Shown here: positions 3,745 to 49,600 of the stretch, piece after piece
How the letters are laid out: each line of letters opens with the position of its first letter
Position numbering within the stretch: position 1 is the stretch's first letter
Source: Dicyema japonicum
Lineage: Eukaryota > Dicyemida > Rhombozoa > Dicyemidae
Direction: 5' to 3'
DNA length: 64,000 bases
Assembly: GCA_011109175.1 (NCBI GenBank)
Contig: RDEW01000010.1
Location: forward strand, 124,001-188,000
Made by a program: the position numbers and the translations under genes
The notes under the pieces: model-generated
What the model was told of the DNA's origin: nothing
Databases searched by the model: none
Seen by the model: the letters and a program-made list of their open reading frames with translations, nothing else

Positions 3745-6600
3745 TTAATTATTATTATTTAATTAGCCCGAGAGGGGAACACCAAGAAAGAAGGAGTAAG
3801 CCAACTAATCAAGTAATTCCGGTACACCTCAAAAGGATCGAGAGGTTTTTCTTATGTTCCTCCAGAGTACCCACGGCTTTCCTGTACTGACGATGATCAC
3901 CTTTCACTAGATTTTGAAGAGGTGTGGGTTTTTTTCCTAATTTACGTGCATTTGAGGCTTCTAGTTTTCAATGGAAGAAACGATTTGTTTCGCGACCAAA
4001 CAGATCGATGAAACCGGAACTTTGTTTTCGATTAAGGCGTGGTCAAGTATTGGGGGAAAAGATGGGAGGCAGATTCGTCAGAGTTACCAACTTGGATGCT
4101 AGGGAATTGATCTTGTACAAATTTGATATTGAAACTCCAATAGCTTATGAGGCACAAGCATATTCAACCGTCAGTTTTAAAAGTTGATTGTACAAGACGA
4201 CAGCGCATTCTCGTGATAGCCTGGAATTTAGGCATTATATTCAGTTTCCTGAGACCCTTTGTCATAACGTTCTTCACATTTTGAGAAAACGTCATCAAAG
4301 GGTCGAAAGTCACTCCCAGAATAGTTGGATAATCTGTAAAGGTAAAGAGTCTCCATATATGCTTAATTCCAGTGTATAATTTTCTTCTCTGTCTGTGGTG
4401 AAGATAGTGTCCGTTGATTTATCCCTGGATATGGAGAGACGATTCAAATTCAACCAGGCTTCTAGGTCGTCAATTTGTGACTGAAGCTCTGATTTTGCCA
4501 TATCCACGTACTTGCTCCTGTTAGCGATAATTATGTCGTTAGAATATTTAGAAAGCATTGAATCTGGCTTTCCAGGGCAGGGCAAATCGTTTAGGAATAA
4601 ATTGAATAGTGCCGGAGAGAGAAGCGATCCTTGAGGGACACCATTCGGTAGAAGACGGGACATCTTGCATGGACTATACAGACACGTCCTCTTTTTTTGG
4701 AAAGAAAATTGGCTATCCATCTTTTCAAAGCCGGTGAATGGTGGTGTCAAAAACCTTTTTCGTGAGTAATATTCTTGGGACAGAATCGAACGCCTTCTTG
4801 ATGTCCAGGGAGACCAACATTGTCCGTAGATCTGTTCGTTGAACCCTTCTGATATAAATTGAGACAGTGAAGTCAAATGTGTCGTAGTTGAACGCTCACA
4901 TTTGAAACCATGTTGAAAGTGGCAGTCGGGAAAATGGGGTTTAATTTTCTAGAGTACGAGTTTCTCCATTAGGCGCGATAATGCGCACGTTAATAAAATT
5001 GGACGGTAGGAAGAAGGTAAGGTTTTCGGTTTTAAGAGGGTATTATAAGTGAGTTCTTCCATTTGCATAGATGACGTTCTTGTTAGAAGACAAATTAAAA
5101 ATTGACGTAATCGAATTGATTGCAATATTACCAAGATGTTTTAGCAAAATTCCCAAAATATCGTCAGGACCACACGTACAAGTATCGATATATCCTGTGT
5201 GACCTCGGCATGCGTAAATAAATCGATCCACGAAATTGGTTTAGGTATTAAATTCCGAAGGTAACAAGAATGAGTTTTCTAGAAGTCCTTGTGACTTATG
5301 GATGCGTTATATTTCATTAGGTTGTTAGCTTGTTCAGTATTTGGAGCAGAAAAGGATTCTGATACATTAGATGATGATAATAGGAGGTTCCACGCCCTAT
5401 CTTTATTTTTTGATGAGTTTTGTTATTCTCTGATTTAAACATTTTATATTTTCCAAATCAGAAGAGGTTTGTTGATGATTCATCTTCAGGGAGTTTCTTT
5501 GCTTGATGAGGAGACGAGTCTCCGAGTCCAGAGTAAAGTTGTAGAATTTGTAGACTGCACGTGGGACAAACAACTTTTCAGTTCGAAGGATTACATGATT
5601 TAGATGGTCCACAGCATTGTCGATGGAGCAAAATGAGCTGGGATCAAAATGTATTAGGGTTTGGTCAATGAAGAGCTTGAAATTTGACCAGTAAGCTTTC
5701 TTGTAGATCTTGAAGGTTGCTTTAAATCTACGTGAGTTATTGAATTGGCTCAGTTTTAATATAATCGGATTATGATCACTATGAAAATCGTAGGAGACGT
5801 TCCATGAAATCACCGGGGCAATCCTAGAGGAAGCAAAGGATATGTCAGGGGAGGTTGGGATGTCATTTCTTCGGACTGGTGTCCTTGTGAAGATGTTAAG
5901 GTGCTTCAGAATCACCATTTTTCGAAAAAGTCATAATTAGACTCCCCTTGTTGTCTGCCGACTGGGTAGTGAACCATTGGGGACGTTTGGCTTTGAAATC
6001 CCCACATAGTAACACATTTCGAATTTCTTGTAGTTTGTCGAGCTTCTGAACATAGTTATTAGGACAGAATTCCGGCGGCGGAATGTAAATGTTGATTAGA
6101 ATGACTCATTAATAAGATCATAAGATATATGACTCATTAATAAGATCAATAGAAATTTGTTCAGCGTTCCTATCGTGTAGAATTAAATCATCCACTCGCG
6201 AGCTCACATCGTGGAAGGATAAACCGTTTTTAACAATGGTAAGTAAGCCACCACCACGTCCAATACGGTCTTTTCTAATAGAGATGTATCCAGGAAAAAG
6301 TGGGGTTGTACTCTTTGTAGAAAGTTTTGACTCCTGATAAGGCAAATGTCTATCTTGTGCTTCGATAATAGACATCGTAACTCCAGGATCTTTGTTTTTA
6401 CTCCGTTAGCATTGAGTTGCATGATAACAAGGGGTTTTGTCCAGGGTTTTGCTCGAGTTTCCAGTTGAGGTATACCATCCAGGCATACGAGGAGTCTGGA
6501 TGGGGAAGAGAAAATGGTTTTTTTGGTGAAATTCGACACTGAGCGCCACCATAAAAGGTGAACCACATGACGCCACGCTAACATTCACATTAATCGAACA
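3745..6600 (-). mobile_element. Jockey-like LINE, near full-length ORF2, decayed
   Basis: Read on the minus strand, the 5' end encodes an APE-type endonuclease. It starts at VIMQLNANGVKTKILEL (about 6425-6375), continues through GYISIRKDRIGRGGGLL (about 6300-6230), and has SDHNPIILKLS at about 5780-5745. A linker follows (5700-5403) and then the RT domain: PSSYRPILLTCALSRLMEKL (about 5020-4960), GVPQGSLLSPALFNLF (about 4650-4600) and a degenerate active site SNDIIIA where YADD is expected (about 4550). The 3' part runs to an ATAATAATAAT-like tail near 3745, the same kind of end as the copies near 37.0 and 47.7 kb. The reading frame is broken several times, so this is a dead copy. Family assignment (Jockey superfamily) rests on motif style only. 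Confidence 0.8.
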
Positions 6601-13794: not shown

Positions 13795-14990
13795 AGGGGC
13801 TACCAGAAGATCGCACCATTTTCAAGAATTTTTGTTTTTTGCCACCGAGATGTTCCATAACTTTTTTGAGATCTAGTGTGTTCCTCATTTCTGACGTAGG
13901 CGTCATTCTGTCACATTTAAGAAGGATCCGGAGGCATTGGTTTTGTATGACCTCTAATTTGTTCTGCGTGGATATTGACTAGGGTGTAATCCACGCCGTA
14001 CATGCATGTTCCATTGTCGGTAGAATATACTGTTTGTATAATAATTTGAGATGAGAAAGTGAAGATATTGGAGATCTAGCAAAGGTCTTGAGGATCCCCA
14101 TCTTTTTTTAAACTCTTGAAATTATTGTGTCTACATGATGTGTGAACGTCTTCAACGGGTCATATGTAACTCAAGAATCGATGGGTTCTTATTAACTGGG
14201 ATAACCTCTCCATTCCAAGTTAATTTAGGGTCGAAGGATGTATGTTTTCTGTAGGAGAAGATAATCGCAGTAATCGACTTCCCAGGGGATATTTTCATGT
14301 GGTTTTTGAGGAACCATGGGTTCATAATGTCGAGGGTCTCCTGAACCCTTTGCGCAGCTTCTTTATGGTTTTGGTGTCTTGCTGCGACAATGAGATCGTC
14401 GACATAAGACAGAAGGATGGTATTTTGGATGTTTGGATTTGAAAGGTCTCTTGTAAATAAATTGAACAAGGTTGATGATAAAGGGGATCCTTGAGGGACC
14501 CCGTTGGGGAGGTATGTTGTCTTTATTTTTTATTATTCATGACAACTTGGCCTCTTCTTCCATTAATGAAATTGGCCAGCCACATCTGGATGGATATCGG
14601 TGTCAAAAATTTTTGTTGTTAGAGTCTTCCAAGGTACCGAATGAAACGCCTTCTCGATATCCAGAGCGACAAGTATTGTTCTTTTGGTTTTGAGTAGTTC
14701 AGTCCATCCGAGATGAACTGAGTTAGTTTTGTTGGATGTGTTGAGGTTGTGTATCCCGATCTGAGGCCATGTTGGAAACTTGCATGAGTAATCTTGTGGA
14801 GAATTAATTTTTCCAATGTTCTTGAAAGGCCACAATGGATAGATGACTGCCCTAAACGCATTGGAAATTGCTTCTTTCGCGCTTGCTTGTAAGTTATCAT
14901 TTCAGGTTCATTTGGGGAGACTCTTTCAAAATCCGTGCTCTTTGGTTTCAAATCGTTGCTTTTATAGCGTTCGACCTCAAAAATCAAAAG
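13795..14990 (-). mobile_element. Jockey-like LINE RT fragment
   Basis: Minus-strand frames include LILHKITHASFQHGLRSGYT (about 14810-14740), ILVALDIEKAFHSVPWKTL (about 14680-14625), a GVPQGSPLSS-like motif (about 14510-14480) and LSYVDDLIVAARHQNH (about 14415-14370). YVDD is a near-canonical RT active site. Downstream, decayed sequence continues to about 13795 with QIRGHTKPMPPDPS-like text. The element is truncated at its 5' end, where an unrelated AT-rich spacer follows. Confidence 0.8.
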
Positions 14991-15440
14991 TCGTCAGTTC
15001 TCTGTCAAAAAGGTTGTCATTGAACTGTTAGGAATTCAAATTTGAATGGGCTGTGTAATTCCCCTCAAAATAAGGATTTTATTGAGGATTTACTTACATT
15101 TTCGTTTGTGGAATCAATTTGCGAAATTTTTATCGAAAACAGGACAAATATTGCTGTTATTCATAACGAACTTTAATTTTGTCACAACCTGAACCTGAAA
15201 AAAATTGCAGAAATCCTCATTAAAGTTTAGGATTTCCTCCCTTTTCCGTTTTATTGAGTTTTAGCCGCTTTGATGGAATTTTGAGTGACAGATCATAGTT
15301 GGTCTTATTTGATTTTGAAAAAGTCAAATTTTGGATAACATAAAGTTCGATTTGTCACTTATGACAATCCCTTATCTCAAAACATTCCGAAAAAACGTGA
15401 ATTTCCCGTTAATATTTCTGGTGGTGTTTACCTGGACATT
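14990..15440. other. AT-rich spacer without recognised features
   Basis: No open frame with family resemblance and no repeat shared with the rest of the window was seen. It separates a Jockey-like fragment from an RTE-like fragment and may be older decayed insertion sequence. Confidence 0.4.
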
Positions 15441-20629: not shown

Positions 20630-22219
20630 TTAAAAGTTAAGTTTTGTGTATTGAGAGACTGTACTCCAATTATTCAAAGCAACAGAATTTTCATAATAAG
20701 TCCTATCTTTAGTTTCCGGCATGAAGATGAAAAGAAATATGAATCCCCCAATGCACATTGAGACGAAAACGAGCAAAATATAATTCTCAAGAAACCTGCA
20801 GAAATTATAAAGCATATACATTGCTAAGGGCTGGTCTGAATATCCAAAAAACAACAAAGTTTGCAAAATTTCCAACGAGAACCCCACCAGAGGCAGCCTT
20901 ACCCCTGGAATCTTGCGTAAAGTACTCAACCATAATAGCTGAGGGACAATTCCATATGAAACAGCAAATGATATAATGAAGATGTATATTGATATAATGA
21001 CAAGGCTGTATATTATGCACCAGAGATATGACTTCCATAATTAAACTTGTATAATTATTAGGGTTGGCCATAATAAAAAACCTTCTCCCATTTTTCAATT
21101 AATGGAATCTTAATGTAACATTATTAATTACGGCGAAAATTGTGGCAATACAATTTACTGCCCCAGTGCCGATTACTACATAAGGTATTGCCCATTTTTT
21201 AACCCCAGCTTGTCATAAATGGATCCGGTAAATGATAAAACTTAATTAATTGTAGTATTTACAGCATTAATTCCCGTGAATTGGACCAAAATTAGAGAAA
21301 CGAAAGACAATTGTGAGAGGTTGCTAAGTGATTTACGAGTGAACAGTTCTATCCATGAAATTCAGTCGTTGATGTATTTTCTATTTCTTCTTTCATTTCT
21401 GAAATCTCTTCTTACAAGTTTCTATTTCCTAAACTGATCAGTGCTAAAATGAATAATTTTATTACCATTCATAGCTTGGTTTCATCATTTGTTTTGAACA
21501 AAATATGACGAGGGCTGTCGGGAAAGAAGAAAAACAATGATGTGAATACTACTGAAATCATTCCCGGATTGTTAATGAAATGCTCCAATAAGATTCATTT
21601 CCTTAAATGTAAATGAAGAATACTGAAAATTGGAGGAATATTCAATATTTGAGCTATTAATATCCCCAATGTAATGGCGAACTGATGGATTGCAATTACT
21701 CCTCCACGGAATCCCATTGGCGTTATTTCGATCATGTACATTGTTACAATGGGCACCAGAATTCCTACAAACTAAGCAATACTTCCTTACCCACACTTAA
21801 ACCCGAAAAAAAGCGAGAAGGAAACAAAAGCTCGATAGAATTTAATGGTTTACTTAGTCCCCCAAAAAGTGACCCAATGATGACAAAGCGCTATTATAAA
21901 TAAGTGCCATTTTCCTTCCAACTCTATCAGCGATAAATGGTGCCATGAAAGCCCCAATAGTTGCTCCAATTAAATATATGCTGGCAATTCCAGCCCAAAT
22001 AAGAGAAAAACTTTTCTAATTCTATTCTGGTAACAAAACATATCTATAATTTAAGATAGTTACATTAATTCTTTAGCTTGCTATGGATAAGTCATAAACT
22101 ACCTCTTCTATGCCTTCCAATACCCCATTTCCATGTCCATATATTATGAGCAACCAAGTCCGGCAATGATATTGCACCATAATATTTCAAAGATACTGAG
22201 TTAACGCTTTTATATCCAT
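20630..22219 (-). pseudogene. Sugar-porter (SLC2-type) gene, copy 1, disrupted
   Basis: This is a diverged copy of the transporter at 51987-53605. The start codon (22217-22219) is followed within about 10 codons by a frameshift, and further 1-2-nt deletions occur throughout, for example in the FLILWP region near 21070-21090. Conserved stretches remain: AGIASIYLIGATIGAF-type sequence near 21990-21940, TPMGFRGGVIAIHQ near 21725-21680, QDSRGKAASGGVLVGNF near 20910-20865 and MPETKDRTYYEN near 20725-20690. Homology to the other copies spans about 20545-22460, so the duplicated segment includes about 240 bp of upstream DNA. The same tiny intron sites can be seen. Either it is a pseudogene or its frame breaks are read errors. 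Confidence 0.8.
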
Positions 22220-24316: not shown

Positions 24317-27082
24317 TTATTGAAACATAATATCAAAAACTTGAGCATATTCCTTCACGAAATGAATTTTAAAGCTTGATTTAATTGTTTCATCAAGTTG
24401 AGAAAAATCACTCTCATTATCAGAGGGAAGAATTAACTCATTAATCCCCAAACGTCGCGCCGCCAAAACCTTTTCCTTGATTCCTCCAACGGGTAGCACA
24501 CACCCAGTCAGGGACAATTCCCCTGTCATGGCGACAGAATTCTTACAAGGCCTTCCCAAAGCAGAAGAAAGCATCGCGGTTGCCAGAGTGCACCCAGCAG
24601 AAGGACCGTCCTTGGGCGTGGCACCCTACAATAAAAATCAATATCAAACCTCAGGAATATGAAGATGTAACCGCCCTTTCTTAGAACCAAAGAAATCATT
24701 TCCTGGGAACTTCCTAATAAGCAGAGCCTGGGCTACTGTCAACGCAATCTCTGAGCTTTCTTTCATTACCTCCCCCATGTTTCCAGTAAGTAGCAATCGT
24801 CCTGACCCCTCTTCTAATCTCGATCGACATTCGACGTACAAAACGGCTCCACCTGAGCTTAGACACTCAAAAACAACCCACTGAGGTCCATGCGAGTCCA
24901 GTAGTAACCCCCACTGGAGTCTCGGTTCCGTAAAATGTGTTTTCAGGATATTTCACCGGCCCAATGAGATCAAAAAGATGTTCACTGGTGAGCACTTTAT
25001 GAGGAGAGGAATTGAGGATTATTTCTAAGGCAGCCTTGCGATATATACGTTCAATCGTCTGATTCAGGGTCCGTACCCCACTTTCACGTGTATAAAATCG
25101 TATCAGGGTCCTCAGTGCTTCATCTTCAACTGTCAACTGATCTGGAAGAAGCCCAGTTTCCCTTCCGATTACTGGGATCAAATGATTCTTGGCAATGTGC
25201 ATCTTCTCGTCATCCGTGTACCCACTGAGAGCGATGAGGTCCATTCTATCCCTCAGAGGGGCTGGAATCAACGAAACGTCATTGGCCGTACAAATAAACA
25301 GCAACTTTGATCTCCACTAAGCACAACCTTGTTCAAATCTATCGGAACATCCATGTAATGATCCAAGAAAGAGCTATTCTGATGAGGATCCAAGACTTCC
25401 AGAAGAGCCGAAGAAGGATCTCCCTGAAAACCTCTCCCAAGTTTGTCAATCTACATAACAGAGATCACTACCTCGTCGATTAGGACCACAGGGTTCTGAG
25501 AATTCGTCTTCTTCAAACATTGGACCAGTTTACCAGGCATGGCTCCCACATAAGTTCGTCGATGACCCTTAATTTCAGCAATGTCAGTGAGCCCGCCCAC
25601 GGAAAAACGATAATACTGTTTGTAAACCATCGAAAGGAACCTCTCTATTAAGGGCTCGTGCAATGGACCTCCCAATACTGGTTTTCCCCACCCCTGGTGG
25701 ACCGTGAAAACATAGAATCTTTCCATGAGTCGACTTCTTGAGTGTTGTTACGGCTATGAATTCAAGAATTCGTTCTTTTACATCCTTCATTCCATAATGG
25801 TCAGAATCGAGTATTTCCCGAGCTTTCACAAGATTCTCGGAATCCTGTGTGAATTTTCCCCATGGAATCGACGTCAACCAATCCAGGTAATTCCTAGTTA
25901 CTGAAAATTCCGCAGAAAAGCTCTCCAAATTTGAAAGTTTACTCAATTCTTGCTCAATCACTTCAGTGATATGCTCGGGGACCGTTAATTTTTCAATCCG
26001 TTGCTTGAATTTCTCTGACACGGAATCTTTGTCATCTTTCAGGATCCCGAGTTCACGTTTAATAGCCTTGAGCTGTTCATTGAGCATGTGAGTCCTGTTT
26101 TGGCCCTTTACTTTCTCTTCAACCTCCGTTCTGATCTTCTGCTGAAGTTGAGACACCTCCAGTTCCTTCTTGAGGAGTTCTAGGGTCAGACGTAACCGAT
26201 TTGAGATCTAGGGACTTATAAATCTCCGATACGTCGGTCTCTTCCAGGACTTTCTGCATTTCCTCGCTCTCTCCGTTCACCAAGGCCGCCCCAATATCAC
26301 TAACGTAAACGGGGTCCTGCAAAGACCGCTCCAACTTAAACCCCCCTTGAAGTATCTGAGACACAGCCTCCCTAAAAATAAGTTTATAAAAACACCGGTA
26401 AATTGGATTTAGATGAGATATCTCTCGCACTGTTTGGACGATCTCATCTATCATGGCCTTTGTTTTTAAAGTTTTCTCAAAATCTTCGTTATAAACGTTC
26501 TCGGTCTTCACCATCAAAATATTCGTGGAATCAACAGGAATCTTCCCTTTGGAGAGCCTCTTCTTCCCAGTTACAACCGAATCAGCATCCTCTGGCAAAG
26601 GATCTATGATTTTAATTCTTAGAAAGAGGCAAAAACTACCTTCGATGAGAAACCAGGAAAACCCTGAGAGAGTTATCAGCCTCGTAGACTTCAACGATAT
26701 TGCAGAATGATCCCACGTGGTAAATGTCATCTAGGCTGACTTGGTCCTCAGCGAAGCTAACTTTAGGTAACCCTCTTACTCGTCCTTTTTTAGCATGAAG
26801 ACGCCGACGAAGGGTAGATTCAAGCTCATCTTTCGACGGATCAGTTCTATTAACTTCTTGTTCTTGATCTATCAGTCTTATTATAAAAAAACTTCGATTA
26901 TTTTGATAAATCCTGGGAACATGGGACTTTTTCGGATGGTCACAAGGGGCACATGGGAAAACTCTTCGGGAATCTTTGTGGATGTCAGTCCTCCTTCAGT
27001 TTTCTGCGAGTTTTTAGAAGGTGGCTTCTTCTTTGGAGGGACGGATGAGGAAAAAAAACAATCGTGGAGGTGCACATACTAG
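24317..27082 (-). CDS. LONP1: Lon protease, mitochondrial type, ATP-dependent
   Basis: This is the ATP-dependent serine protease that degrades misfolded and regulatory proteins in the mitochondrial matrix. Splicing ten introns of 21-28 nt gives one unbroken frame of about 840 residues. Introns: 26892-26869, 26779-26757, 26639-26618, 26395-26372, 26196-26169, 25640-25616, 25471-25451, 25327-25305, 24877-24853, 24650-24627. Order: N-domain ([36 protein letters not shown]), coiled coil ([20 protein letters not shown]), AAA+ module with Walker A GPPGVGKT (about 25703-25680), Walker B VVLIDEIDK across the 25471 intron, sensor region LFICTAND, then the peptidase domain with catalytic Ser in DGPSAGC (about 24600) and Lys in VGGIKEK (about 24475). 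The stop is at 24317. The start is unresolved: a TAG closes the frame at about 27080, and a further 29-nt intron could join an ATG there. A mitochondrial presequence was not identified. The gene looks intact. Confidence 0.93.
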
Positions 27083-27254
27083 TGGACGGACAAGAGAACT
27101 AATTCTGGGTCGTGTTGAAAACAATCTCAAATTAGCAGAAACACGGAAAATATTAGTTGCAAATCTAAACACTCTAGACATGTTAAAATTGTGTAATTTA
27201 AAATTTATATTGGATAATTCAATATTTATTTTACTGATTTAATTAAAAATATAT

Positions 27255-34139: not shown

Positions 34140-36985
34140 TATTATTATTAGCACTTTCATGAGAGCCATAATATATGTACAGCAAAAAAATATAAGAGAA
34201 AGAGTTAGCGTGTTCCAGGATTTTCTGTTCTTAGCCAGATCTCTCAGTGTGTCCAGATTCATCAGCAGATGCCAATGTTTTCTTTGTGTCTTTCAGATCT
34301 TAGTCTCCCACGATAGCGGCCTTTTGGCTAACATAGTATGTTTCCATAGATATGTTAGGTGGGGATGTTAATTCCATCCTCAGCACGTGTCCGAAGAGCT
34401 TCCATCTGGATTCCAGTACTTCTAAGCTGATAGGTCTAGTGCTGCATCTCTTATATAAAACATTTCGATATCTCAATTAGTTCCTGTTATTTTTCTCAGC
34501 TGACCTCTGTGGAACGAGTCTAGTTTTTTCATATCCGCTGATGAGGTCGCCCAAGTTCCAGCGTTATATGAAAGTACGGGTTTTATGAATGAGTCGTAAA
34601 ATAGGATTCTCATTTTCATGTCGATGCCTTTTTGATTGAGCCATAGATTCTTCAGTTTATATAACACAGCATTGGCTAGAGTTTTCCTACGTAAAATATC
34701 TTCGCTATCTCCCAAAAGTGAACCGTGTTTCTTTACTTGTCGCCACTTCTTTTCTAGGACGTTACTCACCCTTCTTATCTCTGTGAGTTCTGTTTTCTCT
34801 CTGTTCACAGTAAGAAACCATTTCCCTAGTACATCTCGTGATTTTTCTAATAGGTTTTCCAGGACCTCTTTGTCTTCAGAAATTAGGTCTACATCGTCAG
34901 CGTAGATTACTTCCTCCGTCTTTCCTTGGTATAACTGTCTAAGTTCCCTCATAGCGGTTTCCAAATAAATTGTGAATAGAGAAGAAGAGAGTCTCCTTAC
35001 GGAGTGCCCGTGTTTGTTTCAAATTTTCTTGAATAGGTCTTTCCGACTCTCACAAGGAGCTCAGTGTTAGAAAGTAGAATTCGGTCATCCTTAGACTCGA
35101 TTCATCAAGAAATCCGCTCAGTACCCCCATTAATTTGTTCCTGTTAACCGTATCAAAAGCTCTTGATAGGTCAATTCCCAGATTATTGGTGGCGTTACGG
35201 TATCTTTGATATGTTACACACCTTTATCTGTGACTCCAGACCGCATCAGCTGTGGATCTCCCTTCTCGAAAACCACTTTGACTATCTGGTAGGTATTTGT
35301 AAGCAGATCCTTTTATTCGTTCAAGCACAATGTTTGCCAAGACTTTGCGTAATGAATTTAGTAGTATGATGGGTCGCAAATTTTCGAGCGGTCCTCTGTT
35401 TTTGTTGGTTTTTTGTATGGGGATTAGTAGTCCCGTACCCAAAGGTAGAGTTGAGTTAGTTGAAAACATTTCATTTAGTAGTGTAGCGATTTTTTCAAAA
35501 AGGAGGTCAGGGCCGTATTTCAGTAATTCTGGGTTTATCGCATCTGGTCCGGGGCTGTTATTCTAGAGTTTTCGGCAGGCCGTTTTGATTTCCTCGGCCG
35601 TGATTGATATCTCCAGGGGTCTTGGTCTTCCATCAAATAAGTGGATCTCTATGGTTTTGATGTCGAAAAGCTTCTCAAAATGAGTCGCGATGGCTTCAGT
35701 TTGTTCTTTGGTGTTCAGTATCAGCTTACCGTTCTCGTCTTTTATGATGAGTCGACTTCGGTTTGTTCGCCGCAGCAAACGAGCAGCGACGTACACCTGT
35801 GCGTTGTCTTTCACTTTGTTTACTTTTCTATACAGAAAGCTATTTCTTCTAGGAAAAGCATCTTGTTCAGACTATTTATTTTTCTTCTGACACGTTGCAT
35901 TTCGCCCTGAAGGGCTTTTATCGTATTATCGTCAGTGGCATTTGATTTTCTCATTTTATTTCTTTTAAACTTTTCGCAAGCTCAGGAACATCTGGATGAA
36001 TAGCCTTCAGGTGCATTTTACTATTCTCCTTTTGCCAAGACATGCTTCAGCAGCTTCGTTGATGGTGTCCTTTGTGCGTTTCCAGGCGTCTTCTAACGTG
36101 TATCCACCAATACGTCCTGCATTAGTCTGAATGTATTGTTGATATCTCTCAGTAGTCTCCGGTTGGAAATCAGCCTTTCAGTCGCGTAGTCGCTTCTGAT
36201 TTTCTCAAATTCGTGATTTTTGCATTCTTGTATTTGATGGCATGTTTTTTCAGGGTGAAGGTCGCAATAACCATCTTGTGGTCGCTGACAGTCGTCGAGC
36301 CTTCATATGAACGTGCGTTTACTAGAAGGTGTTTGTCTTTAGCATATGACATAATCTATTTGGTTGTATATTGGGACCATCTTACCCTCTGAGTTCCTCG
36401 CTTCCCCATCCACGTAGTTTTATGGCAGGCATGTGGCAGGCATGATGCGTAAATGCAGTATTACATAGGAAAAGGTTGTTTGCCATACAAAAGTGACCAA
36501 GTATTGAGTAGAAGTCGTCTAGTTCTGTCGGATCTTCCGCTATTCTCCCGCAGTGTGACGCATAAAGATTTATTATTGTCAGAAAGATCTTTGAAGGAGG
36601 TAAGTCGTTTAGACAGATTTGTATAACACAGATCGTGTCATTCACACTCCATATACGGTGGACTGCACTTGTCAAATTTGATTGGATGGCAAATCCGAGT
36701 CCATAATGTTTTGAGTCGCTCGGCTGACATATAATTCGATATTCGCCATAGTTCTCATCTCGGCTACAAGTAACTTTCGTCTTTTGTAGGCACCCAATAG
36801 ATACGTCGTATCTCTCCAGGTCGTCACAGAGAATCTTCCTCGACCATGTTGTAGATAAGCCTCTAGCATTGAACGTAAGGACCTTTAGACGAAATCCATC
36901 CCTTTGTATCCATTGCCTTTTAGACATTTTTCACAATTGCGATCCAATCAAGAAACGAGACACGTCACCACCTCACCAAAAAATC
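34140..36985 (-). mobile_element. RTE-like LINE, nearly full length, decayed
   Basis: The 5' end is at about 36985 (GTGAGGTGGTGACGTG in reverse complement). The endonuclease open frame (36927-36382) starts MSKRQWIQRDGFRLKVLTFN, continues ARGLSTTWSRKILCDDLERY and ends in a region with TTVSDHKMVIATFTLKK (about 36290-36240). RT: ISITAEEIKTACRKL (about 35610-35570), LGTGLLIPIQKTNKNRG (about 35440-35390), DSQSGFREGRSTADAVW (about 35285-35235), VIYADDVDLISED (about 34910-34870), LTEIRRVSNVLEKKW (about 34785-34740). The tail ends TATGGCTCTCATGAAAGTGC followed by TAATAATAAT near 34140; that last block is shared with the SINE. Frames break several times, so the copy is inactive. Confidence 0.85.
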
Positions 36986-37004
36986 ACATTATTAGAATAT
37001 TTTT

Positions 37005-37658
37005 ATTTTATTTAACACCCAAGACCACGGTAAAACCAAAACAACTATCACGTAATCCCGATGCGTTCCGCCAAAATCCTCATTCTTTCTCGGTGCTCCT
37101 CCCTTGTACCCACACAAGCTCGTACTGGCCGCCTGACTGTATTTGCAGGGCCACCTTCCCGCATTCCGGAGTTTTGTTTAATGAGGGCCTCCAGAGTAGT
37201 CGGTCCGGTTCTGTGTCTCCCATAAGACCACCGCTCCGTCATTCTGAAAGCTTTCTTTTGAGCGTCCTCGATTTTCTTAGTGTTCGTCCATGATAATGAA
37301 GGTCTCCACGAAGCACACGCGTACGAGAAGCATGGTTCGATGTATTGCTTGCAAATGTTCATCAAGACTGGGTGGGTACCTGTCTTGCACATTCCAGATA
37401 AACATTTTAATACATTAATCCTCTTCTCGCACTTCAGAACAATGTTTGCCACGTGTGGTGACAAACATAAGTGAGTATCCAGTGTCACGCCCAGGATCTA
37501 CTGACATTTACTGAAGGGGATTTCAATGTTGTCCAATTTTAACTTGACAGTCATCTTCCCCAACCTTTTGTCCGAAGTAAACATAGACGTGACCGACTTT
37601 CTGGAATTTATCGTGAGTCGGTTCTTCATTACCCAGGCGTTGAGTCGGTCCAGAATAT
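37005..37658 (-). mobile_element. Jockey-like LINE, 3' end
   Basis: The minus-strand open frame (37488-37048) reads TLDTHLCLSPHVANIVLKCE, KRINVLKCLSG, YACASWRPSLSW and EEHRERMRILAERIGIT, the usual region after RT. The 3' terminus (reverse complement) has GATTACGTGATAGTTG, then GTGGTCTTGGGTGTTAAA at about 37010. The 5' edge is at 37658, where an RTE-like element begins; its last 65 bp recur at 40256-40320. Confidence 0.8.
37594..37658. repeat. 65-bp direct repeat, left copy (target-site duplication)
   Basis: Identical over 65 bp to 40256-40320 (begins CGACTTTCTGGAATTTATCG, ends GTCGGTCCAGAATAT). The two copies exactly bracket the RTE-like element at 37659-40255, as expected of a target-site duplication. 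The sequence itself belongs to the Jockey-like element into which insertion took place. Confidence 0.9.
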
Positions 37659-40255
37659 AGTTAGTTAGTTAAGAGCTCTTTCGCGTGGCCCTAAAAGGGG
37701 TTCGCTTGAGCCATGTTTTGCAGCCATCCTCCTCGCCATCCTCGCCCACGCCATCTTGTTCCTGGTCCTCATTCGAACATCATCCAGATCGTCCGCTGTC
37801 ACCAATTTACGACTATTTTGTTCGTAGTCATCTTTTAAGCAGGTTGGAAGTGTGTTTCTTGGTCTGCCTCGAAATCCGCGACTTCCGGCGTAGTAGAAAT
37901 ATTCTTCCATTATTCTGTTACATGGCGTAGTCGGGTCCAGTCTGAGGATATGTCCAAATAGTCGCCATCTCGATAAAATAACATCGGTGCTGAGTGGTCT
38001 GGATTTACATCGTGAATATAGATTTTCATTTGAGATTTTTCTCGGCCAAAAAATTCCAATCAACATGCGGAGTTGGTTCCTGTGAAAAGTATCTAGCTTC
38101 TCTAAATCAATTTTAGAACATGCCCATGTTCCGGAATTGTATAGCAAAATTGGTTTAACAAACGTATAGTCTGATACGAAGTTTCAGTGATACATGTTTT
38201 TTCCTTATCCAAATTTGGTACATTTTTTGAAGTATATGGTAGCCAGCATTTTCCTTCGACAAATATCCTCAGCATCACCTAGCAGTGAGCCGAGTTTTTT
38301 GGTATGTCTCCAGCACTCATCGTTCCTTGATTCTGCTCGTTCGACTCGTGTATAATCAGTTTTTTTAATGTTTATGCGTAAATCCCAATTCTTAAAAATA
38401 CGTTCGGCTTGAAGTAAAATTTGGTCAAGTATTTCTTGGTCGGTAGACACAAAGTCTACATCATCCGCATAAATTAACTCTGTTATGTCCCGGTATTTAG
38501 GACCCATGACATTTCTCAATTCCTTGAGTGCAGCTTCGAGGTAAACAATAAATATAATTGGGGACAAGGAATCTCCTTGTGGAGTGCCCATGTTGGTACT
38601 GAAACTCTTCGAATGCTTTGTTCCTATTCTCACGGATAGGTCAGTTTCGGAAAGTAATAAACTTATTAGTCTCAGGCAGTCCTCGTCAAGCAGTTCCTTT
38701 AGAACAATCATGAGTTTTTCTCTATTGATGCTGTCAAAAGCCTTCGTTAGATCAATTCCTAAGATGTAGATTACTTTCGTGTATTTTTGACATATTGATG
38801 TGAGCCATCGATGACTCCACACAATATCTGAGGTTGATCTTCCACTTCTAAACCCACTTTGACTTAGGGAAAGGTATTTTTCCACTGGCTATCATATACG
38901 GTTAAGCACTATGATCGATAAGGTTTTCCTGATAACTGACAATAAAATAATAGGTCTTAGTCCGTCCAACGACCTTTCTTTTTTCCCAGGTTTATGTATT
39001 GGAATTAAGACTCCATGTCCCAAAGGAAGTGGACAGTGAAGTTCCATCGACTCATTTAAGATATTCGTGATTATACACATTTATTAGAATTTGAACTTCC
39101 CAGTTTCGAACGTATTTCTTTCTGCTGCTCAGACAATTCTCGAATTAAGGGGTCATGAATCATTCGTCTATTTTGGTCTTTTTCCTGGTATCTAACAGTC
39201 TCTATCGCCGACAGTTTTAGAATATCCAAAATCTTCCCGAGGTCAGTCGAGGGGTGCCACTGGGTTCAACTCACGTAAACGTTTAGAGACATTTTGTTGG
39301 TATCTCTTTTGCCAAGTGTCAAAAGTCAACATTTCCACAGCCAAACGTCTATTTAGAGGTGTGCTTTTCCTCTTGACTGCCTCAATTCCGTAGTATCGTT
39401 TGAGATTTAATCTGGCCACCGTTAGCTTATGGTCATCGTCAGTAGTGGTTCTTCCATAACTCCTAGAGTCAGACAGAAGTCTCTTCAAGGAGATAGGGCA
39501 GATAATGTAGTCTATTTGGTTGAATATGCACGTGTGTTCGTCTTTGGACCTTCTTATGCCAACCCAGGTAGTTCTATGTTTTGCTGGGTGTTTAAAAGTG
39601 GTATTGCATAGATACAGATTTGAAGAATTACAAAAATCCAAGAGTGAGTGTCCAGAAAGATTACGATACCCTCTGCCATATTTTCCCATACAGACTTCGT
39701 CGTTCCTTCTCATGCCAGCCTTGGCATCCTAGTCACCACAGATAAATATAAGTGCAGATCGATGAACTCGCATATATGTATTCGATAGGATTTGATAAAA
39801 CTCATCCAACTCATCCATATTTTTGGAAACTCTGCCCATGTGTGGGGCATATACATTGATAACAGTCAGCATAGTATTGTTTGTAGATGATAACACAATT
39901 GCATAACGGCAACACGATCACTGACTGTCCATACTTTATGCAAGCAGTTCACTAGGTTCCAGTTAATTGCAAAACCAAGACCGTAATGTCGATTTTCTGA
40001 TGGGAGTAGAAGAATCCGGTAGTTACAAATGGTTTCATCGGATCCTAGGGCGTTTTTTGTTTCCTGTATGCAGCAAATGTCGATTTTGTAACGGGACAGA
40101 TCTTCGGATAATAGTTCCCTCTTGATCAGAGATGAGAGGCCACGAACATTGTATGTGGCGATGGAAAACAAGGATTTTGCATTTAGACATGATAAAGACA
40201 TGAATTTTTCTAAAGAAGAAAAACAGAAGCACGTCACCACTTCAACCAAAATAAA
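37659..40255 (-). mobile_element. RTE-like LINE, full length (2.6 kb), flanked by 65-bp TSD
   Basis: The 5' end at 40255 reads (reverse complement) GGTTGAAGTGGTGACGTGCT. The endonuclease has IATYNVRGLSSLIKRELLSE (about 40165-40105), DLSRYKIDICCIQETKNALG and, in the next frame, TTTDDDHKLTVARLNLKRYY (about 39450-39395). RT: PLPLGHGVLIPIHKPGKKE (about 39030-38975), SQSGFRSGRSTSDIVWSHR (about 38865-38810), ILGIDLTKAFDSINREKL (about 38770-38715), MGTPQGDSLSPIIF (about 38590-38550), LIYADDVDFVS (about 38485-38450), KLGSLLGDAEDICRRKML (about 38300-38250). The tail, AGAGCTCTTAACTAACTAAC, ends at 37659. Frames break several times, but every RT motif is present. This is the most complete RTE-like copy in the window. 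Confidence 0.9.
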
Positions 40256-40320
40256 CGACTTTCTGGAATTTATCGTGAGTCGGTTCTTCATTACCCAGGC
40301 GTTGAGTCGGTCCAGAATAT
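40256..40320. repeat. 65-bp direct repeat, right copy (target-site duplication)
   Basis: Perfect match to 37594-37658. Directly to its right (from 40321, GTTTTAAACAAATG) the Jockey-like sequence stops, so the original insertion was at the 5' truncation point of that older element. Confidence 0.9.
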
Positions 40321-40431
40321 GTTTTAAACAAATGATTTTTCAAGTTTAAACAAACTTAAAAATTAGGTTATTAAAATAAATATTTTTAAAATAAATCTTT
40401 TAAATTAAAAATAAATATATTCTGACTGTGT

Positions 40432-42719: not shown

Positions 42720-45535
42720 ATTATGGGGACTCTGTGTCGAATTGAGTAAAGAAAGCCCAAATCGAACGGCAGCCGAGTTTGTCCGACATGTTTCCGACGC
42801 GGATGCTTCTAGGATTCGTCCTCAGCAAAACAACACGATATTTCCGGTTTTAAGAGCAATAATGTCTTCCTCAACAGCTGATTGTCGAGAACAATGGGCT
42901 ACTTCGGTTATTGAAAGCACGCGCTCTAGAATCGGTCGTGTCCCCAGAGGTTCCTTATGTCCTCGAGACCCCAAACCAAAAAGATTCCTTATGTCAAGAT
43001 TGACAATAGCTTATTGGAGTGTTTGAACTATGTCATTAGCCAATGGGTTAAAAAGAACTCTATAATTTCTACGGATCAAATTTCTACTCTTATTTATGCT
43101 GGTCAAGCTACATATCAGATCATTTCAGTGAAAAAAAAATGAACCATCAAAATGGAATGAGAATATATGCAGAAAATCGAAAAGTGGAAATCCTTTTTTT
43201 TTGCAAATTAAAAAATTTTTTATGAAGACGTTGTCATCAGGGGAAAAATCCTTAGTGGGATACAAAAAAAATCATGGTTAAAAAGGGAGGATTATTTCGT
43301 ACATTGAAGATAAAATTAAAATTGCGTGTATCTGAGTCCCGCAAGAAATTCCGCCTTGATAATCTAAACTTCGAATTAAATCGAAAATCATTTTACAGAA
43401 ACCTAACCTCTACGGCAAATAATGTTACTGCGTCTATTGATAATGAAAAATGTGCAGACTTTTGGGAAGACGTTTGGAAAAAGAAAGATGTATGTTTAGA
43501 GAGGGTCAATATTGAAAAAAAAACCGGCGTCGAGAATGTACCTGTTGGATATAATAGAAATGAGTTTAATGAAACAATTAAATTTCTGCCTAACTGGAAC
43601 GCCCCAGGCTGCGATATAGTTTTCAACTTTTTTGTTAAAAAGTTCACGTTTTTGCACGACTCAATATTTAATGTGATGAGTAGAGTTGTGGAAGGAGAAT
43701 GTGTGCCTGAAGAGTGGTTTTTCACTGGACTTACTTGATCCCAAAATGCACTGCCCCTGAGTCTCCAAAAGATTTCCGCCCGATTACATGCATGCCATCG
43801 TTATATAAACTCATGACGAAATGCATTAATATGAAGCTAACTGACTATGCGGAAGCATTTGATCTACTTACTGAAAACCAAATGGGCACTAGGAGATGCC
43901 AAGGTGCTAAGGAACAGGCTCTGGTGAATAAGTCACTTAACAGAATCAACAGATTTGGACTTTATGCAGCATGGATTGACGTTGAAAAGGCTTTCGACTC
44001 AGTAAACCATGATTTTCTCTTTGATGTCCTTGAAAACTCTGGCATTCCATTGTGGATTGTTAACGTAATTAAAATACTTATTAAAAAACTGGAAATACAA
44101 GCTTTTTTTAAATAAAGAAAATTTACGCACCATCAAATTACAAAGAGGAATTTTACAGGGAGATAGTTTGTCTCCTATGCTATTTGTGTTAGTGTTGGAT
44201 CTACTTAGCCGATTCCTTAATAACAGATATCCAAAAGTTTCTATTACCAGTAATGATCAGTCAATTGCATCGTTACCAACTAATCATCTTTTATTCATAG
44301 ACGACCTAAAACTTATTTCGAACGATGAAGAAGTTATTGTTAAGATAATGGAACAAGTTAATTTATATTTCAAATCTGTTGGTCTCAAAAAGAACTTGGA
44401 TAAATCGGCTACTAATTCCTTGTTGTTATCAAATGAAGCTAATTGATAGAATAGATGGATATAAGTATTTGGGTGTATTGGAAGGCCCATCTGGGCAAAT
44501 TAACAAGGCAGACATGCTTAAACAATATTTTCTGAAGTATGCCAAAAAATAGAAAAAATAGCAAACACTAAATTGAACTCGGTCAACCTTTTTAAAGCAA
44601 TTAACGAACATGCATTATCTTTATACAATGCTACAACGGATTAATTGATTTGGAACTGAATGAATTTGAGAAGATTGATACTCCGTAGTTTGCTGAATAA
44701 ATATCATATACACCTTAATCCAGCTTGCAAAGAGAGACTGTACCTACCTCGAAAGATGCTAGGGAGAGGATTGTGCTCGATCTCTTTCCTCAGTGATAGA
44801 ATGTTAGTTGGTTTTCTGAACAATTTGAAAGGAAAAAGTACTTGTTGCAGAAGAAGTTCCGCTATTCTTCAGGTCGAAACTTTAAGTAAAACACATATGG
44901 CTACCATTGAAGAATTTTTGCGGGAGAAGTACAATACATTTATCCTGGATAGTAAGAAAAGTCTTCATTCGCAAGTGTACAAAAACCTATCGGAAGAATT
45001 TTTAAACACTGAATTTTCATCTCTGTGGCTAGCAAAAGGGAACAACTTTGTTCTGTTTAGTCCAGGACAGAAATCTCTTCTTTGGAGAACTGAACAAAAT
45101 TTGCGCCTTGTGTAAAAATGAAAAAAAACCGTCGATCATTGTGCTACAAAATGTGAAGGAGTTGATACACCAGGCAGATGTCAAGATTGTCCCGATTGTA
45201 CTCACTTGGGATGGCCTAGTGACTTCACATTCGTGAAGTATGCCAGATCTTTGAATATAAGTGAAAGAACGTATGCGTATGTTCAATCGCTGGTAATCAA
45301 GAAGACTTTGAAAGTATGATTGTATCATATAGGAACGAAGTCGACGTTTCGCGGCGTTATGATAAACTTAACGAAGGGATAAAAGATAGTAACTCTTGGT
45401 CTGATTATGAAGCGAGAGAAGAGTGTGAGCGAAGTGATGTCAATGTATATTTAAGAAAAGGAAAAGGACTGTGACAATTGGGTTTACTCCCATAGTTGCT
45501 CGAAGAGGAAAAGAATTTGATAGAGAAAATTTTAA
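42720..45535 (+). mobile_element. R4-like (R2-superclade) LINE, decayed
   Basis: Plus-strand frames give an almost complete RT region. An N-terminal part (43274-43738) includes NEFNETIKFLPNWNAPGCD and VVEGECVPEEWF. The frame then shifts into PKDFRPITCMPSLYKLM (43770), GTRRCQGAKEQALVNKSL (43890), AAWIDVEKAFDSVNHDFL (43966-44020), LQRGILQGDSLSPMLFVLVL (44140-44200), LLFIDDLKLIS (44290-44320), YKYLGVLEG (44462), RLYLPRKMLGRGL (44740-44775) and a CPDCTHLG zinc-binding remnant (45190). The phrase order RPITC, GAK(D/E)Q, WIDxxKAFDSV is typical of R4/Dong/Hero-type elements. These usually end in a restriction-like endonuclease; I do not see its PD-type motif. The active site is FIDD instead of YADD. 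At least four frame breaks are present. A SINE abuts its left side. Confidence 0.8.
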
Positions 45536-45699
45536 TTAGAATTAACCGCTCTGTTATTATAAAAATTTACAATTAAAAAAATAAAATAAACTCTCAGTTA
45601 TTTTTTACTTCAATAAATTTTTAAAATATTATTCAACAACTTCAAGATAATTCTCCTTTCTGATCAGAATTTTTTGTTAGATTGGCAATTTCGGCCAAA

Positions 45700-47370
45700 T
45701 CAGAAAGCTACAAAGGAAAACACTGACTTAACGAGATGAAGAAGGAAAACATATTGCTAACCAACAAGAAATTGCAGAACTTATAGCGGACTATTTTGAA
45801 ACACAATTCGTATCAAAAATAGCAAAAAACTCACAATTAACAGGAATCAAGGAAAATTAGACGAAGAAATAACTTTGGAAGAAGTGATGACGGGAAGTTT
45901 CAAACTGAAGGACAATAAGAGTCCCAGCCCAGATGGCTTAAATGGTGAATTTTTCAAATATGGAACTCAAAAACTATACAAGATAATTGCCTGGATTCTA
46001 AACGAAACGTATAATAAAGGAACCACCTTGCCATTTGGAGAAGGACAATTGATACCTGTACAGAAGCCAAACAAAAAAGCAGGGAAAGTTGAGAACCTAA
46101 GACCAATGGTCTTAACCAACACATTACGGAAGATATTAGCCAATATTACGCTTCAAAGAATTGAGGAACGCCTAGACTCGTACCTGTCGGCTTATCAAAG
46201 TGGCTTCTGCTAAAGGAGATCAACGTCTGATGTTATATGGAGCCACAAATGGAGAAGTGCGACTGTTCAAAATTAAAAATAACGACAACTATTCTGGGGA
46301 TTAATATGTCAAAGGCCTTTGATTCCGTCAACAGGAACAAGCTGCTGCAAATACTGGAGCTCAACGATTAGGATGGTCAGGACACTCCTGGCATACACAA
46401 GTTTGATGGTCAAGGCTGGAAAAGCTTTATCGATAACATTTGAAACGACAATTAGTACTCCTCAAAGAGATCCATTATCCCCGATTTTGTTTATTATTTA
46501 TCTGGAGGCAGCTCTACGAGACTTGAAGCCTTATATCGGAGAAGAAACGAGCATAATAGCATATGAGGATGACGTGGACTTCATTTGAATAACAAAAAAG
46601 AGTTAATTTCACTTTTGGAAAAAATTTCTGATAAAATGGCTGAATGTTCATTAAAAGTAAACACAAACAAAACCGAAATCACTGAGCTAAAAAGAAGTGA
46701 AGAAAGGACCGAGGAGCACTGGCATAGATCAAAAAAACTAGGATCCCTTTTCGGTGACACCAAAGATATAACACGAAGGAAGACACTAACTATTGTCGCT
46801 TTCAACAAAATGAAGAAGACCTGGCTTCTGCACAAAAGGCTTGACCCTAAAACTCGAATGAGACTATACAATGCCCTAGTGAGGCCAATCCTATTATATA
46901 ATGCCGGTACATGGGCATGTACAGGGCAGGAACTCGAAAAGTTCAATGTTTTTCACAGAAATCATCTCCGAGCACTTCTTTCTTCTCGAAGCCTTTTCAA
47001 AATGCCGTCCGAAATCTTATACAAGAGAACAGGAACTGAGCCAGTATCATGTAATATTACTAATTCAAGATGAGGCTGTTTGGACACATACTCCGCCACG
47101 ATATGAGGACCCCTGCAACATAGCAATGGAGGAGAATTTTATCTTGGAGGCTTCGCGTTTCCGCGTCCGGCCGAGGACAAAATAGCCGGTAATCCTAGAT
47201 GAAGATCTCAGGAGGATTGGAAAGTGCCTTAAAGATGGGGATAATCTAGATATGCTACGGAACCTGGCAACGGATCGAAAAAGATGGGCGATGTTAATTA
47301 GATTGTTAACTTTTCGTGTTGCACATTCTTTGTCATGATCTTGGCAGCGAGTACGTGCCTATAATAATAA
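45700..47370 (+). mobile_element. RTE-like LINE, RT and 3' end (5' truncated)
   Basis: The open frames in order read LKDNKSPSPDGLNGEFFKYG (45905-45965), LPFGEGQLIPVQKPNKKAG (46030-46085), LRPMVLTNTLRKILANI (46098-46150), SAYQSGF (46190), a shifted MSKAFDSVNRNKL (46305-46345), QRDPLSPILFIIYLEAAL (46465-46520), an eroded active site AYEDDVDFI (46558-46586), KTEITELKRSEERTEEHW (46670-46725) and KLGSLFGDTKDITRRKTL (46735-46790). The 3' end reads GTGCCTATAATAATAATACC. The same 3' terminus appears at 27.3-27.6 kb. Confidence 0.85.
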
Positions 47371-47719
47371 TACCTCAAACAAGTTTTGTAAACTTTAACG
47401 TTCACCTTATGCAAGGAAAATCATGTTCGAGTAAGCATTAGTGACTTTATAGATCCTAGAGTGGTAGATGAATGAGAAAGTCAGATATTTTTACAGTGGC
47501 ATCTGTGAAATCGTAATTAAAATGATCTGTTAGCTTGAAATGTTTATTAGGCATAAGATTCAATAAAAAGCTGTTGTTGGAAAATTCGTGAGTTGATAAA
47601 AAACCTGAATATTTTCTACTAACAGTCTTAACCTTTTCAGTTACCTTTCTGATAAAACCAATAGTTATCAAAAACTCGAAAAATTTAACAAAAAAACCAA
47701 TAAAAATTATTCTTTATTA
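47371..47719. other. Spacer without recognised features
   Basis: AT-rich interval between the 3' ends of an RTE-like element (plus) and a Jockey-like element (minus). Nothing recognised. Confidence 0.4.
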
Positions 47720-49600
47720 TTATTTTAAAACCCCAAGACCACAAAGAATGAAAGAATTAACTTGCTAAATTACGTGATCCCAGCCTCCAACATCTCTTGA
47801 ATTCTCTTCGAATGCTCCGCCAGTGAACCAACAGCGTTTCTAAAGTGTCTTCTTTTATTTCTGCAAAGGAATTCTATCGGGGTTCACTTTTTAATTCCGA
47901 TCTGAATTCCTCCGCATGAACCACCCTCTCTCTGAATGGGTTTCCTAGCTCATTGCACATACGTAGGAAGCCTAGGCCATTTCTCACCGTCGCCTCTTCT
48001 GAAAGCAGACTGGGGATGGATGTGGAGTCTGATTTTACATGCCTCATGATCTTCCGTCTGAGGAAGTTCATGCGCTCCACCCTCGTAGAAGGAATTGCGA
48101 ATCTCCAGGCAGAACAGGCATATTCAGTCGTTGGCGCAATAATTTGGAGATATACTTTGCTGATACAAGCAGTAGGAAGGAAGGGGCTCTTCTTTACGAT
48201 GGCTTTTAGGACGTTCCATTTTCGAAAACCCTTGGTTAACACCTCCTCCGTGTGACTGGCGAACGTCATCAGAGAGTCGAAAGTTACTCCAAGGATATTT
48301 TGGATTCGTGTGTTTACGAGGAATATCTCAAGTCCACCTTTAAATCTTCTGTCCGTAGTAAATAGGGTGAACTGGATGCAGACACAGACAGTAAATTCAT
48401 GGATAGCCAGTCACACACCTGGTTGAGGTGTGACTGAACCACCGCCACAGCCCTGGAGGGAGATTTGTTCCTTGCAGCGATAATCAGGTCGTCTGCATAA
48501 GATAAAAACATGGTTGATAGTAGGTAAATCGTGTAGAAATAAGTTAAATAAGAGAGAAGATAGAGGGGGCCTTGTGGGACCCCATTATGGAGTAGTCTTG
48601 ATTTCGAAGTAATTTTTCCAATCTGGACTCTTCCACATCGGCCATTTAAGAATTTTTCCAGCCATAGCATGATGCTCGGATGTACATTTGAGTTAAATAT
48701 CCACTTTGTTAGGAGAGTCCTCGAAACCGAGTCGAAGGCTTTCTGTATATCTATAGACACCAGAGCCGTCCGTAAGTAAGTTTTCATGTTGAAGCCGTCT
48801 GTGATGAACTGGGATACAGATCCCAAATGCGTCGTTGTAGAACGGCCTGATCTGAAGCCATGTTGAAAATCAGGAAACACTAGAACAGGGGTGATCAACA
48901 TTAGTACAAACTTATCCAACACTTTTGACAAGGCGCCAGTTATGGATACAGGGTGGTATGAGGATGGAATGTCTTTTGATTTTCCAGGCTTGAGGATTGG
49001 AGTAATCACTGAGTTCTTCCATATGTTTGGTATTGTATGGGATTTTATAGACTGATTGTATAGTCTTGATAACATAATATGAGCCTCCTAGGTGGTTAAG
49101 GTGGATAGCACAGACACCGTCGGGGCCCCAGGCTCGGGTTTGTCGTAGAAATTTAAAATTCCTTTCCACGTCGTAGGGAGTGAAGAACGTCGTAAATGTC
49201 TACTGTTGTGGGCCACCTCGTTTGACATGCAGAGATCGAGAGAAGTCCTTGTGGCTGATCGACACATAGTATTTCATGAGGTTATTAGCGAGTTTCCGTG
49301 CATATTCCGGGGCAAAGGTAACGGTTTCCACTCTGCCGTCATCTTCCTTTGTGAGGCTGTTGCTACTCTTTAGTGTCTTCTAGAAGGTTCCACACGAGTT
49401 CTTGTGCCATAGTCGACCAACAAGCCGACTCCACTTTTGTCTTTATTTATCACGGAATAGTTGGGAAATTATGCGATTTAGAGAGCGTATGGACGATATA
49501 GAGCCATCTGATTGCATTCCGGTTTTCTTCAAGGCATCCCGTTTCTTGATATAAAATAGTTTGCATGTGCGCACTTTTAAAGTTCTTTATTTCATTTTGT
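47720..49600 (-). mobile_element. Jockey-like LINE, RT and 3' end
   Basis: The minus-strand frame 49075-48314 carries NSVITPILKPGKSKDIPSSY, GALSKVLDKFVLML, QHGFRSGRSTTTHLGSVSQF, ALVSIDIQKAFDSVSRTLL, HNGVPQGP and FLSYADDLIIAARNKSPSRA. The next frame (48269-47874) carries HTEEVLTKGFRKWNVLKAIV, YACSAWRFAIPSTR and HAEEFRSELKSEPR. Upstream, 49600-49080 holds the pre-RT linker. The 3' terminus at about 47720 reads TTGTGGTCTTGGGGTTTTAA. The active-site YADD is intact. The left edge of the tandem duplication (48875) falls inside its RT domain, so only the upstream part is repeated at 57012. Confidence 0.85.

Follow-up and report, generated by a model that had tools for sequence, protein, structure and literature searches.

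Probable spliceosomal introns of 21-25 nt in the Lon protease gene of Dicyema japonicum, in a genome with conventional-looking spliceosome parts

Introduction

Introns of about 25 nt with weak splice sites are known from dicyemids and have been in print since 2007-2008. For Dicyema acuticephalum, one study that defined introns from genomic and cDNA clones gives a length of 26.2 +/- 1.9 nt (n = 16; PMC2222250), and another gives a mean of 24.93 nt (s.d. 2.51, n = 41) and describes the weakest known 5′ boundary (PMC2483917). For the predicted genes of a Dicyema sp. an intron median of 27 nt is quoted, with citation of Ogino 2010 (PMC6543705), and the gene models of D. japonicum are described as having a mean intron length of 38.2 nt (PMC6736024). 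Introns of similar size are reported from Paramecium (20-35 nt) and from the nucleomorph of Bigelowiella natans (18-21 nt; PMC2222250, PMC2483917), and still shorter ones from Stentor coeruleus (15-16 nt), for which a role of altered branching factors has been conjectured (PMC9505925). Among U12-type introns, the shortest average in the data of a broad survey, from which introns below 30 nt were excluded, is that of Blastocystis, at just under 42 nt (PMC10639083); a term search of the main text of this survey returned no mention of dicyemids.

Here we describe the gene for mitochondrial Lon protease of D. japonicum. Judged from the genomic sequence, ten segments that interrupt it are almost certainly ordinary U2-type introns, shrunk to the 21-27 nt that are standard for dicyemids.

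Ten probable short introns in the Lon gene

The window, by which we mean the whole 64-kb stretch of DNA that was analysed, carries the Lon gene on its minus strand, from 27181 to 24317. A 190-aa ORF is similar to PDB chains that carry the name 'Lon protease homolog, mitochondrial' (best E-value 6.8e-72), and a family search located Lon_C at a single place in the genome. We aligned a Lon profile, made from 22 animal homologs out of 120 listed, to the DNA, allowing intron lengths of 12-60 nt with GT or GC..AG ends. The aligned coding sequence amounts to 2439 nt, and the alignment predicts ten GT-AG introns between 26892 and 24626, numbered below in gene order.

27080..27181, minus strand: probable first coding exon, an open frame with its ATG at 27181, encoding a mitochondrial-targeting-like peptide (MSRVFRFATNIFRVSANLRLFSTRP...)
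27031..27079, minus strand: possible 5′ intron, 49 nt, GTATGTG..CCAAAG, one of at least 12 frame-compatible GT-AG solutions
24317..26994, minus strand: conserved Lon body, coding exons and ten introns (spliced profile alignment 26994-24320, 1405.5 bits, 0 frameshifts)
26869..26892, minus strand: intron 1, 24 nt, phase 0, GTTTTTTTATAATAAGACTGATAG
26757..26779, minus strand: intron 2, 23 nt, phase 2
26618..26639, minus strand: intron 3, 22 nt, phase 2
26372..26395, minus strand: intron 4, 24 nt, phase 2, NPIYR|EAVSQ
26208..26232, minus strand: intron 5, 25 nt, phase 0
25616..25640, minus strand: intron 6, 25 nt, phase 0
25451..25471, minus strand: intron 7, 21 nt, phase 0, VVLIDE|IDKLG, in the region that we take to be Walker B
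25305..25327, minus strand: intron 8, 23 nt, phase 0
24853..24877, minus strand: intron 9, 25 nt, phase 1
24626..24649, minus strand: intron 10, 24 nt, phase 0
24317-24319, minus strand: Lon stop codon

Removal of the introns yields one continuous Lon protein without frameshifts, in which GGIKEK and other motifs (19 further protein letters, not shown) are unbroken; we presume that these motifs have their usual functional roles. As a control, the alignment was rerun with each of the 256 possible pairs of donor and acceptor dinucleotides. GT-AG scored highest, with ten introns and no frameshift, at 1405.5 bits against 1297.6 bits for the runner-up and a median of 1169.2 bits; together with the continuity of the protein, this argues that the observation is real and not due to chance. 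The first-pass annotation had reported ten GT-AG intervals breaking conserved Lon sequence, and the profile alignment and its 256-pair control return the same count and a continuous protein. Of the lengths it gave, 21-28 nt, those of 21-25 nt were recovered, while the 28-nt intron is absent and a third 25-nt intron stands instead. Its description of the protein as strongly conserved holds in part: the protein is conserved but not extremely so, with an identity of roughly 50-52% to most of the animal Lons listed, as estimated with an approximate query.

Retention of nine of the ten introns would shift the frame or introduce an in-frame stop. The tenth, intron 4 (26372-26395), is a multiple of three in length and free of stops, such that its retention would add eight residues, and a mechanically called ORF (26119-26730) runs across it uninterrupted. 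Upstream of the Lon body, the open frame at 27080..27181 is probably the first Lon coding exon, although its conservation is too low for proof, and an additional 5′ intron likely separates this targeting-like exon from the Lon body. Rfam and tRNA searches within the 64-kb window returned no matches.

Several other ORFs in the window were named by eye. Fragments of reverse-transcriptase-like ORFs surround Lon (4310-6584, 14152-14993, 34473-40339 and 43256-49087), further reverse-transcriptase-like ORFs (55033-55718 and 63167-63852) form a repeat at a distance of 8134 bp, and there are three copies of a sugar-transporter-like C-terminal piece (20630-21040, 52031-52402 and 60172-60624).

Short introns across the genome

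Of 142 kinase-domain matches in the genome (64.67 Mb in 191 contigs), we took the 30 best and sampled introns from their loci and from Lon, using homology-guided splicing only for all intron statistics. The kinase profile was seeded from eight uninterrupted kinase pieces of the same genome and refined over four rounds, and splicing was allowed over 12-150 nt with no length preference and no motif beyond GT/GC..AG. Despite the aligner having no preference for length, kinase introns peak at 22-24 nt. From 107 aligned gaps, seven (five of 12-15 nt and two of 89 nt) were dropped before counting as probable alignment errors. Both 89-nt gaps sit in related kinases, and may each combine a coding insert with a short intron.

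Among the 100 introns counted, 93 are 20-28 nt long (median 23 nt, mean 24.35 nt), as are 83 of the 90 that remain when Lon is left out, and the donors comprise 99 GT and one GC. At least one intron of 20-28 nt was found in 29 of the 30 kinase loci, the remaining locus being intronless in its kinase domain. One locus that was spliced with two frameshifts (L048) is included in these length counts but was kept out of the decoy and classifier tests described below. As the kinase boundaries derive from divergent profiles, some are likely to be off by a few bases. With this distribution the Lon gene is typical for its genome, and the suggestion that it is exceptional finds no support; short introns are the rule in the genome sample and in dicyemids.

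Ab initio gene models were less useful. A tandem repeat at L041 (C159:700001-710000), a long array of low complexity that contains open frames, captured a first, self-trained model. When L041 was excluded, a second model found a large part of Lon but yielded three genes only, and a third, for which the homology-spliced exons served as training set, predicted too much and placed the ends of some Lon introns inexactly. The third was used solely to obtain draft SF1 and U2AF65 proteins, which were then compared with Pfam and PDB. Among 7937 candidates scored, a Pax6-like protein read by eye at L075 had as its best match the Pax6 of D. acuticephalum, with 59% identity over 89% and a score of 403 bits, against 335 bits for the second match; this comparison, which concerns one gene, places the genome among the dicyemids but in a species distinct from D. 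acuticephalum.

Weak local splice signals that may suffice in combination

Signal statistics were computed on 96 introns of 18-31 nt. Donor information at positions +3 to +6 is 0.42, 0.14, 0.10 and 0.09 bits, less than 1 bit together, while the exon carries A at -2 in 58% and G at -1 in 57% of the 96 (G at -1 in 54/95). A G at +5, which animal donors usually conserve, is present in 18 of 95 GT introns, and only two of the 95 start with GTAAG, which points to weak pairing with U1 although the U1 5′ end is intact. Matches to CAGGTAAGT are likewise weak, averaging 4.72 of 9 positions in donors (n = 92) compared to 3.62 in exonic GT (n = 1130). At the acceptor, T or C precedes AG in 82% of the 96 introns. 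A TACTAAC-like motif, which we predict to be the branch site, has a mean score of 5.42 compared to 4.65 in shuffles (s.d. 0.157), and in 34 of 61 well-matching introns the A of this motif is followed by 4-8 bases to the intron end. Intron bodies contain 42.7% T and exons 28.1%.

We found no depletion of GT..AG pairs at 20-28 nt within exons, where 507 were counted against 511.5 +/- 20.2 in synonymous shuffles; spacing alone can therefore not be the intron code. Nor did we find any strong avoidance of introns that are a multiple of three in length, the remainders 0, 1 and 2 being represented by 36, 31 and 29 introns; an in-frame stop occurs in 22 of the 36 multiple-of-three introns, and 14 of the 36 are stop-free (a case also seen at L067). 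We then trained a classifier on donor, acceptor, composition and length, evaluated by leaving out one gene at a time, with 92 introns and 745 exonic GT-AG decoys of 19-30 nt. The combined classifier reached an AUC of 0.959 and, for 85 of the 92 introns, ranked the true one above all pairs that overlap it; the AUC was 0.943 for the two splice sites together, 0.834 for the donor, 0.872 for the acceptor, 0.699 for composition and 0.710 for length. This success suggests that weak local signals suffice in combination within the sample, as they would under intron definition: a simple local code picks most introns out of coding sequence where GT..AG spacing alone fails.

Parts of the major spliceosome

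Genes for the major snRNAs are present in multiple copies: 25 matches to U2 snRNA (best 155.1 bits), ten to U6 (best 107.8 bits), and 11 to U1, of which the best, at 69.0 bits, falls slightly below the gathering score of 69.5. The U1 sequence ACTTACCTG is retained in nine of ten copies fetched of the 11 found (loci L022-L031, which have diverged), the exception (L024) carrying ACTTACTTG. GTAGTA is present in all ten U2 copies fetched, of the 25 found, and ACAGAGA in nine of ten U6 copies. We note that the nine U1 copies keep ACTTACCTG though donor sites hardly match it.

The draft SF1 matches the PDB chain 'Splicing factor 1' (7vpx_D) at 4.2e-89 over 281 query residues, in an alignment that spans the hairpin domain and KH up to the zinc knuckle. 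For the draft U2AF65, comparison with U2AF65 chains gave 1.8e-62 for the first two RRMs and 3.4e-30 for the third, the UHM. Gaps of 22 and 23 nt interrupt the U2AF65 gene too; longer gaps predicted in the drafts (68 and 70 nt in U2AF65; 31, 49, 49 and 55 nt in SF1) stand outside our intron counts.

With the snRNA motifs unbroken in nearly all copies fetched, and with the draft SF1 and U2AF65 aligning over the domains that bind RNA and partners, the factors that read intron ends appear conventional so far as they can be seen. The first-pass annotation had concluded that these introns imply a spliceosome adapted to minimal introns, and had proposed a search for changes in U1, U2 and U6 and in SF1 and U2AF; in the parts examined, which are U1, U2, U6, SF1 and U2AF65, no such adaptation was seen, the recognition sequences being canonical and the draft proteins canonical-looking. 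Its more basic claim, that the segments are extremely short spliceosomal introns, is supported by the genomic evidence. In other animals the minimum intron length is some 40-60 nt, and the co-occurrence of tiny introns with canonical U1, U2, U6, SF1 and U2AF65 suggests that this larger minimum is probably not set by these parts.

Intron ends, lengths and composition, the snRNA genes, and the SF1 and U2AF65 genes can all be read from the DNA, and we propose the following sequence of events around them. Nuclear Lon pre-mRNA would be spliced by a conventional major spliceosome, in which U1 would form a weak pairing at the degenerate donor, AG|GT(A/T). The branch site, likewise degenerate and with its A mostly 4-8 nt before the intron end, would be occupied first by SF1 and afterwards by U2, and U2AF would read the (Y)AG just downstream of it, while the T-rich intron body may help to mark the segment. 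Since donor, branch site and acceptor would fall within some 25 nt, recognition would proceed by intron definition, with factors sharing one stretch.

AT-AC introns and a possible minor spliceosome

The genome contains a U12 snRNA gene (C68:163471-163599, L076; 85.4 bits, gathering score 53), the 5′ part of which is close to the family consensus and includes GTAAGGAAAAT, as well as a U6atac gene (C34:237761-237858, L084; 37.0 bits, gathering score 33). A search for minor introns with the pattern TATCCTT..CCTTAAC gave no enrichment over a backward-read control, with 19 hits compared to 44 in the control at a spacing of 0-30 and 18 compared to 28 at a spacing of 31-61. The flanks of six of the 37 pattern hits were judged by eye. 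Two were coding with homology and are listed below, two were not classifiable, one had a T before TATCC, and one was continuous coding sequence.

C137:646004-646051 (L080), minus strand: AT-AC intron, 48 nt, in a gene for an SMAP-type ArfGAP, supported by coding fit
C126:181460-181517 (L079): AT-AC intron, 58 nt, in a phospholipase C gene, supported by coding fit

The SMAP protein, when spliced over its AT-AC intron and a 23-nt intron, aligns without gaps to 2crr_A (SMAP1B) over 65 residues (1.4e-17). In phospholipase C the downstream exon is plain, and conservation is lower in the linker upstream, where the best alignment contains a gap of 7 residues. Within these two genes a 23-nt GT-AG intron lies 86 or 165 nt from the AT-AC intron. 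Both AT-AC introns have ATATCCTTT donors (RTATCCTT was tested) and TTCCTTAAC branch sites, which we take to match the U12-type consensus; as the donor and branch motifs were the search key, the independent evidence for these introns is their coding fit. A third probable core of a minor intron, TATCCTTTT..TTTTCCTTAAC, 45 nt (C148:743073-743117), is a candidate from the pattern alone.

These cases suggest that the floor on intron length is higher for the minor than for the major spliceosome in the same nucleus (n = 2, with the motif key itself imposing a lower bound on length). We tentatively consider, at somewhat less than even confidence, that the genome keeps a working minor spliceosome and hence two machines with different length floors, 21-27 nt and 48-58 nt. 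If true, minimal intron length would be a property of the machine and not only of genome compaction, and this nucleus would let nature's own comparison be drawn between two spliceosomes exposed to one shrinking pressure, in which minor introns remain twice as long. A literature search over main texts, largely of open-access papers, turned up no description of a dicyemid minor spliceosome.

Alternative explanations

We considered whether the Lon segments could be something other than introns. It is very unlikely that they are eliminated from the DNA of somatic nuclei, like the internal eliminated sequences of ciliates, instead of being spliced from RNA. Such sequences have TA-type ends in Paramecium; these are absent from the Lon segments, which end in GT-AG, with a YAG bias and a branch-like motif, and genes for snRNAs, SF1 and U2AF65 have been kept in the genome. 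Unusual DNA processing has been discussed for the group given 24,065 'circular' contigs in a Dicyema assembly (PMC6543705), but the introns of D. acuticephalum were defined from genomic together with cDNA clones (PMC2222250). In a window full of retroelement-like ORF fragments (named by eye), one might suspect Lon of being a decayed pseudogene, or its gaps of being assembly errors. We regard this as extremely unlikely, given that each of the ten gaps has GT-AG ends and a length of 21-25 nt, that 2439 nt align without a frameshift, that the motifs are intact, and that introns of such length are found again in 29 of 30 kinase loci.

A further possibility accepts splicing but attributes the narrow range of lengths to a spliceosome with altered core parts, which would measure out a fixed distance of about 23 nt like a ruler. 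The concentration of 93 of 100 introns at 20-28 nt, combined with very weak donors, would be in keeping with such a ruler. The snRNA recognition elements, SF1 and U2AF65 are nevertheless canonical-looking, length is by itself a poor discriminator between introns and decoys (AUC 0.710, compared to 0.943 for the two splice sites), and exons are not depleted of decoys of 20-28 nt, all of which make a ruler unlikely. We therefore favour ordinary U2-type introns of dicyemid length, recognized by a conventional major spliceosome.

Comparison with known systems

The introns described here resemble the ultrashort introns already reported from dicyemids in being short, uniform and several per gene, with a median in the present sample (23 nt, n = 100) slightly below published dicyemid values. 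A branch-like signal is present above shuffles in our sample, whereas PMC2483917 reports no such signature. The AT-AC introns share donors and branch sites with U12-type introns, and their lengths of 48 and 58 nt are found here in an animal.

Stentor coeruleus also combines tiny, AU-rich introns with a set of snRNAs described as complete (PMC9505925), but its branch A is nearly fixed in introns of 15-16 nt, whereas here the predicted branch position is variable, introns are 21-27 nt long and the G at exon -1 is kept. Paramecium and the Bigelowiella natans nucleomorph are likewise described as having uniform tiny introns with weak sites; these are, however, a unicellular organism and a nucleomorph, with donors that are largely GT(A), whereas A or T stands at +3 in D. 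japonicum. Lon adds a gene to a known curiosity, that of animals with introns as short as those of Paramecium.
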